In this document: one piece after another, positions 709-58,512 of the stretch
Numbering within the stretch: the first letter of the stretch is position 1
Layout: every line of letters begins with the position of its first letter
NCBI GenBank assembly: GCA_036262055.1
Contig: DATAJP010000002.1
Location: forward strand, 702,177-766,176
Length of the DNA stretch: 64,000 nt
Source of the DNA: Ignavibacteria bacterium
Lineage (GTDB): Bacteria > Bacteroidota > Ignavibacteria > Tepidaquicellales > Tepidaquicellaceae
Direction of reading: 5' to 3'
Position numbers and translations under genes: made by a program
The notes under the pieces: generated by a model
Told to the model about the DNA's origin: nothing
The model's database searches: none
The model's input: only the letters and a program-made list of their open reading frames with translations

Positions 709-773
709 TGTCACCCTGGACTTGATTCAGGGTCAACAAAACGTTTATGGATTCCTGCTTTCGCAGGAATGAC
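709..773. repeat. 65 bp composite double-hairpin repeat, copy 1
   Basis: Two small palindromes joined by a short spacer: one built on CACCCTG...CAGGGT (711-734) and one on ATTCCTGCTTTCGCAGGAAT (751-770). A second copy with about four mismatches lies inverted at 50076-50140. It sits between a T9SS protein gene and the OsmC gene, and its right end overlaps the first possible OsmC start codon. There is no T-tract, so it is not a standard terminator. Confidence 0.9.
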
Positions 774-5730: not shown

Positions 5731-5775
5731 TACCGGGATGACCCAAAGGGTTCCCCCCGCTTTTGCGGGAATAAA
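5731..5775. repeat. Degenerate GCGGGAAT-family palindrome
   Basis: A decayed copy of the dispersed palindrome (CCCCGCTTTTGCGGGAAT) preceded by a second small hairpin, CCGGGATGACCCAAAGGG-like. It occupies the gap between ppdK and the M61 peptidase gene. Confidence 0.6.
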
Positions 5776-8123: not shown

Positions 8124-8153
8124 GAAGTCATTCCCGCGAAGGCGGGAATCCCC
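8124..8153. repeat. GCGGGAAT-family palindrome, solo copy
   Basis: The core TTCCCGCGAAGGCGGGAA, preceded by GAAGTCA and followed by TCCC, matches the inverted repeats that frame the two GIY-YIG genes. No nuclease gene is attached here. It lies between the PTS IIA gene and the stop of the nucleotidyltransferase gene. Confidence 0.88.
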
Positions 8154-39355: not shown

Positions 39356-39385
39356 CTGGGATTCCCGCCTGCGCGGGAATGACTT
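39356..39385. repeat. GCGGGAAT-family palindrome, solo copy in a gene leader
   Basis: TTCCCGCCTGCGCGGGAA with CTGGGA before and TGACTTC after. It ends 13 bases before the ATG of the GCS2 ligase gene, so a hairpin would form in that leader. No nuclease gene is attached. Confidence 0.88.
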
Positions 39386-43195: not shown

Positions 43196-43226
43196 GAAGT
43201 CATTCCCGCGAAAGCGGGAATCCCAG
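43196..43226. repeat. GCGGGAAT-family palindrome, left inverted copy of GIY-YIG element 1
   Basis: Core TTCCCGCGAAAGCGGGAA within a 31-base unit starting GAAGTCA and ending TCCCAG. On the minus strand bases 43200-43226 are the last eight codons and the stop of the GIY-YIG gene. Confidence 0.93.
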
Positions 43227-43538
43227 TTTAATTTCTAATAACTCATCAGTTCCACCAATTTCATAAAATAAATCTTTCCAGTTATTGTTTACTTTCTCAA
43301 TTAACTCATTTTTCCAACTTCGATTCCATTTTTTTAATTGTTTTTCTCGTTCAATTGCTAATTCTACTCTTTCAAATTGTTCATAATAAATTAATCTATC
43401 AGTATTATATTGATATGAAAATCCTTTTATAGTTTTTTGTTTATGTTCAATAATGCGGCGTAATAAATTGTTAGTGACACCAATATATAAAACTTCATTG
43501 GATTTATTTGCTAAAATATAAACGAAGAAGTTTTTCAT
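43200..43538 (-). CDS. GIY-YIG nuclease-like protein, repeat-framed copy 1
   Basis: A 112-residue single-domain GIY-YIG protein. Motifs are FVYILANKSNEVLYIGVTNNLLRR (the GIY and YIG strands, here VYI and YIG), then IEHKQK, and YYEQFERVELAIEREKQLKKWNR, with the acidic and basic residues of the fold. It has no DNA-binding extension. It is about 80% identical to the copy at 56601 (90 of 112 by hand count). The palindrome at 43196 encodes its C-terminus GFPLSRE, and the inverse palindrome at 43547 lies eight bases before its ATG. Such small proteins are common in this phylum and their role is unknown. Here they look like the coding part of a repeat-bounded element. Confidence 0.9.
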   Translation of the reverse strand: MKNFFVYILANKSNEVLYIGVTNNLLRRIIEHKQKTIKGFSYQYNTDRLIYYEQFERVELAIEREKQLKKWNRSWKNELIEKVNNNWKDLFYEIGGTDELLEIKLGFPLSRE

Positions 43539-43546
43539 TTTTTATA

Positions 43547-43573
43547 CTGGGATTCCCGCTTTCGCGGAATGAC
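43547..43573. repeat. GCGGGAAT-family palindrome, right inverted copy of GIY-YIG element 1
   Basis: CTGGGATTCCCGCTTTCGCG then GAATGAC, inverted relative to 43196. One G is lost in the right arm compared with element 2. It precedes the start codon of the nuclease gene. Confidence 0.92.
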
Positions 43574-45512: not shown

Positions 45513-45541
45513 TGGATTCTCGCTTCCGCGGTAATGACTTC
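45513..45541. repeat. Degenerate GCGGGAAT-family palindrome
   Basis: TTGGATTCTCGCTTCCGCGG then TAATGACTTC, a worn copy of the palindrome around the GIY-YIG genes. It lies between the ABC ATPase start and the AAA+ gene end, and the low-complexity ACTTTATAACTTTATAAAC repeat follows. Confidence 0.62.
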
Positions 45542-50075: not shown

Positions 50076-50140
50076 GTCATTCCTGCGAAAGCAGGAATCC
50101 ATCAACATTTTGTTGACCCTGAAACAAGTTCAGGGTGACA
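50076..50140. repeat. 65 bp composite double-hairpin repeat, copy 2
   Basis: Inverted copy of the unit at 709, with about four mismatches in 65 bases: CATTCCTGCGAAAGCAGGAA, spacer, then CCCTGAAACAAGTTCAGGG. On the minus strand it supplies the final codons MSP and the TGA of the GT9 gene at 50130. Confidence 0.92.
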
Positions 50141-56071: not shown

Positions 56072-56560
56072 TTATTTACATTCTAAAGAAATCAGGAGCT
56101 GATTTTTATCAACGTTCTTTTTTTCTTCGATGAATATTTTTTTAATTCTGCAATCGAAAGGTGCTTTTATTTCATTTTCCATTTTCATCGCTTCAAGCAC
56201 AAGCAAAACATCACCTTGTTTCAGCTCATCATTCTCTTTAACGTTAAGTTTAACAATTGCACCGGGCATCGGAGATTTAATATCATTATTGATTTTCCGG
56301 TGATTTCTGCCGCCCGTGAGCCGCTCTTTTATTAAGTCCGTCTCGCTTTTGCAAGTAATATTATATACTTCGTTTTTAATACGCAATCTCAAATTATCAC
56401 CCTCTTGTTCAATATTCACAATGTAATTCTTGTTGTTAATTTTCACCGAAGCAAAATTTTCCGAAAGCTTTTCATACTCAAACGGAAAAGACTTACCATC
56501 GATGTTGATTGAATCGGTGTCGAGGTTTACTTTTTTATTGTTTATTAAATATTTGGTCAT
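56072..56560 (-). CDS. Biotin carboxyl carrier protein
   Basis: A 162-residue carrier whose biotinyl domain (about 90-162) contains SPMPGAIVKLNVKENDELKQGDVLLVLEAMKMENEIKAPFDCRI; Lys126 in EAMKMEN takes the biotin. The N-terminal half (NINNKKVNLDTDS-like beta strands) resembles the tail of acyl-CoA carboxylase alpha subunits. It is the carrier for the biotin carboxylase gene at 57004-58512, which is upstream on the same strand. The pair is split by GIY-YIG element 2 (56597-56981). No carboxyltransferase gene lies nearby, so the acyl-CoA it serves (acetyl, propionyl or other) is not shown. Confidence 0.92.
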   Translation of the reverse strand: MTKYLINNKKVNLDTDSINIDGKSFPFEYEKLSENFASVKINNKNYIVNIEQEGDNLRLRIKNEVYNITCKSETDLIKERLTGGRNHRKINNDIKSPMPGAIVKLNVKENDELKQGDVLLVLEAMKMENEIKAPFDCRIKKIFIEEKKNVDKNQLLISLECK

Positions 56561-56596: not shown

Positions 56597-56627
56597 GAAG
56601 TCATTCCCGCGAAAGCGGGAATCCCAG
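56597..56627. repeat. GCGGGAAT-family palindrome, left inverted copy of GIY-YIG element 2
   Basis: 31 bases with core TTCCCGCGAAAGCGGGAA. It is a perfect inverted match of 56951-56981. On the minus strand bases 56601-56627 code for the last eight residues and the stop of the GIY-YIG gene. Confidence 0.95.
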
Positions 56628-56939
56628 CCTCTTTTGTAATAGCTCATCATTTCCACCAATTTCATAAAATAAATCTTTCCATTCTGAATTAATCTTATTA
56701 CCGTGTTCATTTTTCCAGACTCTATTCCATTTCTTCAATGTCTTTTCTCGTTCAATAACAAAATCGCTTCTTTCAAACTGTTCGTAGTAAATCAGTTTAT
56801 CCGTATTGTATTTATACGAAAACCCTTTTATAGCTTTTTGTTTATGTTCAATAACCCTTCGTAATAAATTATTAGTAACTCCAATATATAAAACTTCATT
56901 CGATTTATTTGTTAAGATATAAACAAAGAAGTCTTTCAT
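56601..56939 (-). CDS. GIY-YIG nuclease-like protein, repeat-framed copy 2
   Basis: A 112-residue GIY-YIG protein, homologue of 43200-43538. Visible residues are Val6-Tyr7-Ile8 and Tyr18-Ile19-Gly20, the Arg27/Arg28 and His32 region (NLLRRVIEHK), and EREKTLKKWNRVWKN at 63-77. The last eight residues (LGFPLSRE) are written by the palindrome. The start ATG lies 11 bases inside the other palindrome and no Shine-Dalgarno is seen, so expression may depend on readthrough from the biotin carboxylase transcript. It interrupts the carboxylase/carrier operon. Nuclease activity is assumed from the family, not shown. Confidence 0.9.
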   Translation of the reverse strand: MKDFFVYILTNKSNEVLYIGVTNNLLRRVIEHKQKAIKGFSYKYNTDKLIYYEQFERSDFVIEREKTLKKWNRVWKNEHGNKINSEWKDLFYEIGGNDELLQKRLGFPLSRE

Positions 56940-56950
56940 TATTTTTGGTA

Positions 56951-56981
56951 CTGGGATTCCCGCTTTCGCGGGAATGACTTC
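56951..56981. repeat. GCGGGAAT-family palindrome, right inverted copy of GIY-YIG element 2
   Basis: 31 bases, CTGGGATTCCCGCTTTCGCG then GGAATGACTTC, the exact inverse of 56597-56627. Together they bound a 385-base element. Confidence 0.95.
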
Positions 56982-57003: not shown

Positions 57004-58512
57004 TTATCTATAATACTTCAGATTCTGTTCTTTCCATTTTGATGTTTGTTTCAGAACAGAATTATTATTCGCAACATCATTTTTACTTTCTCTTTGCATT
57101 AACACCGCAACAAAAGCTGCTGCTTCCGCGTCTTCGTTATCAAATTTATCTTTTGTACTATTCTTATATCTTTCTAAAAAAGTTTTTTCTATGAACTGTG
57201 TGTCATAACCCCCGTTTATGAACTCAGGACATTCAAGCAGGCTGTATAAAAACGAAATATTGGTTTTAATCCCGTCCAGCAAATAGCTTTCAAGACCGCG
57301 TTTCATTTTTTCAATTGCTTGTTCTCGAGTATCTGCATACGATACAAGCTTTGCAATCATTGAGTCATAATAAACCGATACTTCATCACCCTGCTCAATT
57401 CCTGTGTCTTCACGCAGACCATTGCCAAGCAATCTGCTCAGGTAAGTTATTTTTCCTGTCGAAGGAATAAAATTATTGTCAGGGTCTTCGGCGCTTATCC
57501 TGCATTCAATTGAATGTCCTTTGAACTTTATGTCTTCTTGTTTGAATGAAAGCTTTTCGCCGTAAGCTACTTTTAACTGCTCTTTCACCAAGTCAATGCC
57601 GGTTCGCATTTCAGTAATCGGATGCTCAACCTGCAGACGGGTATTCATTTCGAGGAAATAAAAATTTTTGTTTTTATCTACGATGAACTCAATTGTTCCT
57701 GCGTTTGAATAATTCGCTTCTTTCGCAAGCTGCACTGCGCAATCACCCATTTTTTTTCGCAGCTCATCATCGATGATTGTCGAGGGAGTTTCTTCAATTA
57801 CTTTTTGCAAGCGTCTTTGCATCGAGCATTCGCGCTCGCCGAGATGAATAACGTTACCGTGTTCATCTGCAAGAATCTGAAATTCTACATGTCTTGGTGC
57901 AAGAATATATTTTTCGATAAACACACTGTCATCACCGAAAGACGAACGTGCTTCGTTCTGCGCCATGCGGAACATACTTTCAAGTTCGTCTTCACTCTGA
58001 ACAATTCTCATTCCTTTTCCGCCGCCGCCTGCAGATGCTTTTATCAGAACAGGGTAACCTATTTTTTTAGCAATATCATTTGCTTCATTAAAATCTTTCA
58101 GTGGGGTTACAGTTCCCGGAACGATCGGTACTTTTGCATCAACCGCAATTTTCTTTGCGTTAGTTTTGCTTCCGAGAAAATCAATTGCTTTTGAGGAAGG
58201 ACCTATGAATTTTATTCCCGATTTCTCACACATCTCTGCAAAATAACTTCGTTCGGATAAAAACCCATACCCGGGATGAATTGCTTCCGCCCCGGATTTT
58301 TTTGCAACGTCAATTATTTTGTCAGCAAGCAAATAACTTTTTGAGGCAGGTGATTCGCCTATATGAAATGCTTCATCAGCAAGACGGACATTAAGTGAAT
58401 TTTTATCGAAATCAGAATAAACCGCAACAGATTTTATACCCATTTCGCGTGCTGTATTTATCACGCGGACTGCAATTTCACCACGGTTTGCTATTAAGAT
58501 TTTTTTAAACAA
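57004..58512 (-). CDS. accC: Biotin carboxylase subunit of an acyl-CoA carboxylase
   Basis: It carboxylates the biotin of the carrier protein with bicarbonate and ATP. The 502 residues have FKKILIANRGEIAVRVINTAREMGIKSVAVYSDFDK, the ATP-grasp glycine loop KASAGGGGKGMRIV, HVEFQILADEHGNVIHLGERECSMQRRLQKVIEETPS, and the metal and biotin site FYFLEMNTRLQVEHPITEMRTGIDLV. The C-terminal part is longer than AccC of fatty-acid synthesis, in keeping with propionyl- or methylcrotonyl-CoA carboxylases. The start is TTG at 58512. A CTGAATTTTCAG word lies five bases before it. The carrier gene follows after the GIY-YIG element. Confidence 0.95.
   Translation of the reverse strand: MFKKILIANRGEIAVRVINTAREMGIKSVAVYSDFDKNSLNVRLADEAFHIGESPASKSYLLADKIIDVAKKSGAEAIHPGYGFLSERSYFAEMCEKSGIKFIGPSSKAIDFLGSKTNAKKIAVDAKVPIVPGTVTPLKDFNEANDIAKKIGYPVLIKASAGGGGKGMRIVQSEDELESMFRMAQNEARSSFGDDSVFIEKYILAPRHVEFQILADEHGNVIHLGERECSMQRRLQKVIEETPSTIIDDELRKKMGDCAVQLAKEANYSNAGTIEFIVDKNKNFYFLEMNTRLQVEHPITEMRTGIDLVKEQLKVAYGEKLSFKQEDIKFKGHSIECRISAEDPDNNFIPSTGKITYLSRLLGNGLREDTGIEQGDEVSVYYDSMIAKLVSYADTREQAIEKMKRGLESYLLDGIKTNISFLYSLLECPEFINGGYDTQFIEKTFLERYKNSTKDKFDNEDAEAAAFVAVLMQRESKNDVANNNSVLKQTSKWKEQNLKYYR

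Follow-up and report, generated by a model that had tools for sequence, protein, structure and literature searches.

The 64,000-nucleotide stretch of Ignavibacteria bacterium DNA analyzed here, referred to as the window, contains at positions 56597 to 56981 what is probably a REP-bounded mobile unit (unit 1), composed of a small GIY-YIG nuclease gene of the Ssn type and a CGTC-type REP hairpin that is most likely the target of the nuclease. This reading is supported by several observations: the framing of the gene by inverted REPs, their prevailing outward orientation, the presence or absence of units at corresponding sites in related genomes, an internally deleted copy, and a match between nuclease lineage and REP type. 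We infer that the nuclease itself drives the movement of the unit. Such a unit may explain how widespread bacterial repeats without a known enzyme arise and, if the reading is true, would represent a transposition-like route by way of a nuclease class whose members are, to our knowledge, not known as transposases.

A previous sequence-only reading of this DNA had described a 385-base unit with identical, inverted 31-base ends, each of them itself palindromic, enclosing a gene for a 112-residue GIY-YIG protein, and all of these elements are borne out here. The left REP (56597..56627, plus strand) and the right REP (56951..56981, minus strand) are identical 31-nt arms in inverted orientation, 100% complementary to each other and with their tags facing outward, and these hairpins mark the ends of the unit. 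As single-stranded DNA, each arm folds into an 8-bp stem with a 4-nt loop (GAAA or TTTC) at energies of -9.0 and -8.8 kcal/mol, with equal folding in 0 of 200 shuffles. The layout is AGTC-ATTCCCGC-GAAA-GCGGGAAT-CCCA, in which the GTC of the tag abuts the stem. Between the arms, an open reading frame of 112 amino acids (56601..56939, minus strand) matches the GIY-YIG family PF01541 with an E value of 1e-15. This frame overlaps the left palindrome, as its final codons and stop codon lie within that arm, while the right REP ends 11 bp ahead of the start codon. Upstream of the unit lies a biotin carboxylase-like gene (57004..58512, minus strand), used as a flank in the empty-site comparison, and downstream a biotin carboxyl carrier-like gene (56072..56560, minus strand).

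The REPs of unit 1 show the features of CGTC-1 REPs as described in PMC3733652: a GTC tag, an 8-bp stem starting with AT, a 4-nt loop, and a tail close to CCA, the one difference noted being that the full tag is AGTC here. The palindrome also satisfies the dRS3 pattern ATTCCC(N8)GGGAAT given in PMC3898611, and CGTC-1 REPs in Neisseria are identified with dRS3 in Di Nocera 2013 (PMC3733652). Within the 2.87-Mb genome, the hairpin core has 141 matches at no more than 2 mismatches and a broader tagged pattern is matched exactly 146 times, with no match for the reversed control in either search; at least one match to the broader pattern is present in 39 of 59 genomes, the window's own included. 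A script found 48 tagged hairpins in a 464-kb sample comprising 20 stretches and the window, and 47 of these are intergenic, compared to 814 of 4200 random points. The commonest loops in the own-genome sample, GAAG and GCAG, frame none of the nucleases of that genome.

The intergenic position of gene-less REPs, together with their occurrence between convergent genes (12 of the 45 with known context, against 26 of 247 gaps overall), would be in keeping with ordinary terminator or regulatory hairpins that flank a small gene by chance. We regard this explanation as barely credible in view of the identity of the 31-nt arms, their outward orientation, the dispersed copies, and the recurrence of the hairpins around homologous genes.

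A second gene-bearing unit, absent from the sequence-only reading, lies at approximately 43199-43573. Its nuclease gene (43200..43538, minus strand) likewise encodes 112 amino acids, 80% identical to the protein of unit 1, and is bounded by a left REP (43199..43226, plus strand) and a right REP whose stem is short by one base (43548..43573, minus strand). The two units are paralogues 13 kb apart, with unrelated genes as neighbours. A search of the window for an 18-nt core, allowing 3 mismatches, gave 10 matches where shuffles predict 0.07: two in unit 1, two in unit 2 (43203 and 43553), and six outside both, confirming that solo copies of the palindrome are present. Gene-less copies include loop variants GAAG (8131..8148, plus strand) and GCAG (39362..39379, minus strand) and two weak copies with 3 mismatches (5754..5771 and 45517..45534, both minus strand). 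An Rfam scan of the window gave no hit at gathering scores.

Gene-less two-REP elements of 64 bp with outward tags were also found, at 50076..50139 (plus strand) and 710..773 (minus strand). This element is constant in length, with five copies in 464 kb (the two in the window and those at L078, L083, and L090), and joins one CGTC-1-like REP to a different REP of the CTGAA type; of the eight REPs of this CGTC-1-like type, five sit inside such elements. It looks like a REPIN/MITE-like unit. The possibility that own-genome gene-less pairs are gene remnants was rejected, as alignment of four pairs with five units revealed nothing clear beyond the REP sequence.

Fourteen alignment columns are invariant in 31 homologous proteins, among them catalytic-type residues of GIY-YIG enzymes, and from this conservation it is suggested that nuclease function is under selection. 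The invariant residues include Y7, Y18, G20, R28, H32, E65, and N84, which we take to be the GIY-YIG catalytic positions. An AF2 model of the unit 1 protein (pLDDT 88.9, pTM 0.81) was compared with known structures by Foldseek, where only 1zg2 (UPF0213) passes an E value of 0.001 (9.8e-4, TM 0.44), followed by Slx1 (0.025) and the UvrC N-domain (0.27). Sequence search of the PDB gave weak matches to Slx1 and two sialyltransferases at an E value of 0.17 or worse, and the single NCBIfam match lies far under its cut-off. A phage origin was rejected, with no match at an E value of 1e-5 among 50,697 phage records, as was membership of a defence-system family, PADLOC finding nothing for unit 1 and a single weak match (E 9e-4) for unit 2. 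A homologue in Neisseria gonorrhoeae, which is presumably Ssn, is 42.7% identical over 79% of the window protein and lies inside a dRS3 array.

The genome of the window contains eight GIY-YIG matches. Two of these have long frames (650 and 573 amino acids), are presumably UvrC-like, and carry no REP frame. Among the six small genes, five are framed by REPs, of four kinds, and the other (L003) belongs to a different small subfamily. This L003 gene (1150-2200; about 967 kb on contig C3) has an 80-amino-acid frame, is flanked by direct repeats of a tRNA-like fragment with a long palindrome, and adjoins tRNA-Thr and tRNA-Gly genes. Other members of this second small GIY-YIG group often have a tRNA gene nearby as well, in seven of the nine loci of relatives that were scanned (L037, L136, L137, L139, L140, L142, and L143), with none at L138 and L141.

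Homologues were gathered from 59 genomes including the window's own (42 with a match), from named genomes, which added five loci in Alphaproteobacteria, Bacteroidota, and Verrucomicrobia, and from PLSDB, where 32 records matched and 11 were retrieved. Two records labelled as plasmids in PLSDB, NZ_CP119140.1 and NZ_AP026896.1, are of chromosome-like length (2.2 and 4.9 Mb). From the 92 loci scored, 75 homologues with full flanks were counted after omission of L009 (the same gene as L006) and of 4 of 79 with short flanks; the 75 include five from the own genome and one gene counted twice (L031 and L133), which fails both times. An inverted-repeat score of at least 26 is reached by 54 of these 75, compared to 31 of 1000 random own-genome intervals and 3 of 12 small GIY-YIG genes that are more distantly related. 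On this result and the identity of the 31-nt arms, flanking by chance was rejected; nor is the nuclease family usually found without the palindromes, the outcome that the sequence-only reading had named as fatal to the mobile-element idea. As 21 of the 75 fail the test, the inverted-REP frame is usual and not universal. With a stricter test, for outward-tagged hairpins on both sides, the count is 30 of 75 against 9 of 2000 random intervals, whereas inward-tagged hairpins on both sides occur at 8 of 75. One nuclease subfamily retains its REP frame across phyla. In Azospirillum lipoferum (L098), a REP-framed GIY-YIG gene sits within the suf operon, between sufB and sufC.

Sites were also compared among relatives, and gene-bearing copies at sites empty in relatives, whose lack the sequence-only reading had named as another refuting outcome, were found at three places. 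The first is the accC-accB junction, where unit 1 lies between the biotin carboxylase stop and the carrier start 443 bases past it; in all 25 relatives that could be evaluated, out of 29, nothing interrupts the junction, the carrier-protein frame being open from the biotin carboxylase stop. The second is in genus g17, where 10 loci from 13 searched genomes were compared at a junction of genes that we take, from sequence motifs, to be purK and purE: a gene-bearing unit is present in 3 of 10 species, gene-less REPs in 2, and no REP in 5. Strongly supported sisters differ there, with a gene in G039 and an empty site in G035, and a gene in G029 and a REP remnant, a collapsed two-tag hairpin, in G032; at least three changes, whether gains or losses, must therefore have occurred. 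At another site, for which 13 genomes were searched and 12 compared, G035 alone carries a unit, while the other 11 species have no REP tag and flanks 138-251 bp apart. A single gain is a simpler account of this site than repeated scarless losses. G039, the sister of G035, has a related nuclease (one clade, 100/100) at purK-purE.

On a Sinorhizobium replicon, a full unit is accompanied by a neighbouring copy with an internal deletion, in which the REPs at both ends and the gene's last codons are retained. In a relative that is 95.5% identical in the aligned pieces, full unit and deleted copy are both missing, and the place of the deleted copy is taken by one hairpin tagged on either side; the locus is otherwise REP-rich and the alignment gapped. 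The full and deleted copies resemble the autonomous and non-autonomous pairs of mobile elements. The two-tag hairpin could represent a scar of excision or else a target. In this closest pair compared, the junctions fall inside the REP loop. Target-site duplications could not be discerned: the nearest empty sites have diverged too far or, as in Sinorhizobium, are themselves REP-rich.

These sites also bear on a different role for the nuclease, in which an Ssn-type enzyme polices single-stranded DNA that enters the cell or becomes exposed (in natural transformation, for instance), with REPs as target marks and with the gene and its flanks moving mainly by homologous recombination between REPs. 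Ssn in Neisseria is said to cut single-stranded DNA site-specifically and to modulate transformation, and both the gonococcal homologue within its dRS3 array and the invariant catalytic-type residues would fit such a role. However, units are found where relatives are REP-free (5 of 10 species at purK-purE and 11 of 12 at the G035 site), so that recombination between REPs would be insufficient by itself, and an internally deleted, REP-ended copy exists. We consider surveillance with passive spread unlikely, though deserving of attention, and a REP-bounded mobile unit the better description.

The type of REP follows the lineage of the nuclease. On the protein tree, REP class requires 5 changes, compared to a mean of 17.2 in shuffles, and 0 of 200 shuffles are as low; the tree covers the 35 of 79 homologues with a REP that could be classed from its letters (6 of 40 rows omitted, L001 added), and classes were assigned by eye ahead of any view of the tree. 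In one clade (86/88, unstarred), CTGA-type sequences belonging to the window genome's order fall together with those of an alphaproteobacterial and a verrucomicrobial assembly, the latter on a long branch, and the own-genome L002 nuclease (CTGA/CTGAG-type) falls outside the main clade of its REP class. Distances between nucleases correlate with those between REPs across genomes (rho 0.25, p 0.0005) and weakly across taxonomic families (rho 0.08, p 0.025), the test within genomes being not significant (rho 0.33, 17 pairs, p 0.22). The match could partly be a product of shared descent. At the genome level, nuclease and REPs are associated over 58 relatives (p 0.0002), but in the two families sampled best the difference in counts is only borderline (p 0.053). 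Of the 32 relatives that lack a nuclease match reaching 60 bits, 15 have REPs, and in G003 there are 12 REPs of the CTGAG type while no homologue was matched. Such genomes, like the commonest loops that frame no nuclease of the own genome, speak against a strict dependence at the present day or point to nucleases having been lost.

Could this match reflect vertical descent only, with old units inherited in place, often lost, and unmoved since? Loss alone could account for the differences between sisters at purK-purE, and the collapsed two-tag hairpin retained in G032 would agree with it. The G035 site, by contrast, requires either one gain or repeated losses that left 11 species REP-free, and the window holds paralogous units at two sites. 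To descent without movement we therefore give very little credence, and retain the interpretation that the units move.

It might also be supposed that Y1 transposases of the RAYT type spread the REPs and that the GIY-YIG gene is a passenger between two of them, as the own genome has four Y1 transposase matches and 12 of 13 genomes of g17 have Y1 transposases as well. Yet tagged CGTC hairpins are found at 0 of 9 evaluable Y1 loci (4 of 4 in the own genome and 5 of 8 retrieved from g17; 3 of 12 had no usable frame), and 7 of these 9 are flanked by other inverted repeats. No Y1 match was found in G035, whose unit occupies a site that 11 relatives have empty, and the frame kept by one nuclease subfamily across phyla likewise speaks against a passenger gene. 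Y1/RAYT transposases were accordingly rejected as carriers of these REPs, and a passenger role for the nuclease appears highly unlikely. The Y1 transposase genes L197, L198, L199, and L204 have their own flanking inverted repeats, which at L198 begin with GTAG, and it may be that a GTAG-Y1 and a CGTC-GIY-YIG system coexist.

A route by which the REP-bounded unit could move can be envisaged. When a strand becomes single-stranded, during replication or transformation, each REP would fold, and the nuclease would recognise its own REP as a single-stranded hairpin and cut it at the tag, stem, or loop. The cut ends could then become linked to another copy bearing a REP, or be repaired with the help of such a copy, so that the unit is inserted or removed and the gene-bearing form may reach new intergenic sites, with gene-less REPs and two-tag hairpins remaining as derivatives or scars. 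The single-strand step draws on the stability of the hairpins and, by analogy, on what is reported for Ssn.

This route would have consequences for a larger group of repeats. A catalogue of CGTC REPs spanning five phyla (PMC3733652) states that they "apparently lack a dedicated transposase", with no association with transposase genes reported and no mention of GIY-YIG in the portion searched; PMC3898611 gives almost 700 dRS3 repeats in meningococcus. We tentatively raise the possibility that the CGTC REP superfamily has its missing dedicated enzymes in small GIY-YIG nucleases, which would form with their REPs a joint mobile element, or transposase-less REPtron, that would move by way of single-stranded hairpins, give rise to internally deleted and two-REP derivatives, and exist in parallel to REP-RAYT in the same genomes. 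If the framed nuclease makes or moves CGTC REPs, a single small protein and a single hairpin would be enough to test the question left in 2013.

Several known systems are comparable in part. GIY-YIG homing endonucleases carry the same nuclease domain and active-site residues, but in the present case there is no intron or conserved host gene, the ends are hairpins, and each genome holds many target-like copies. REP-RAYT systems (REPtrons, with GTAG REPs) share the arrangement of an enzyme gene between inverted REPs and of solo and paired REPs dispersed in the genome, and differ in that the enzyme here is a GIY-YIG protein and not a Y1 HUH transposase, and the tag GTC and not GTAG. The proposal that this is the REP-RAYT layout with another enzyme class is upheld by the framed homologues and the existence of empty sites. 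Our literature search found nothing tying GIY-YIG nucleases to REPs or CGTC palindromes, and among the matches listed for GIY-YIG, palindromes, and mobile elements none is by its title about bacterial REPs. Neither the link to the CGTC REP question nor evidence for movement of a gene-bearing unit was found in print by these searches, although the Ssn paper may hold either.

The closest relationship is with the Ssn family, and the earlier statement that no named system of this type exists was for this reason too strong. A paper in Nature Communications in 2025 reportedly describes Ssn proteins as Neisseria GIY-YIG single-strand nucleases with a cognate dispersed repeat, NTS, and thousands of homologues. 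The units in the window are placed with this kind on the basis of that account and of the gonococcal homologue amid dRS3. Both comprise a small GIY-YIG protein and a cognate dispersed repeat, and the palindromic repeat, said to be a feature of Ssn, is found here around the gene and dispersed in the genome. What sets the present units apart are the perfect inverted REPs at both ends and the evidence of whole units changing place.
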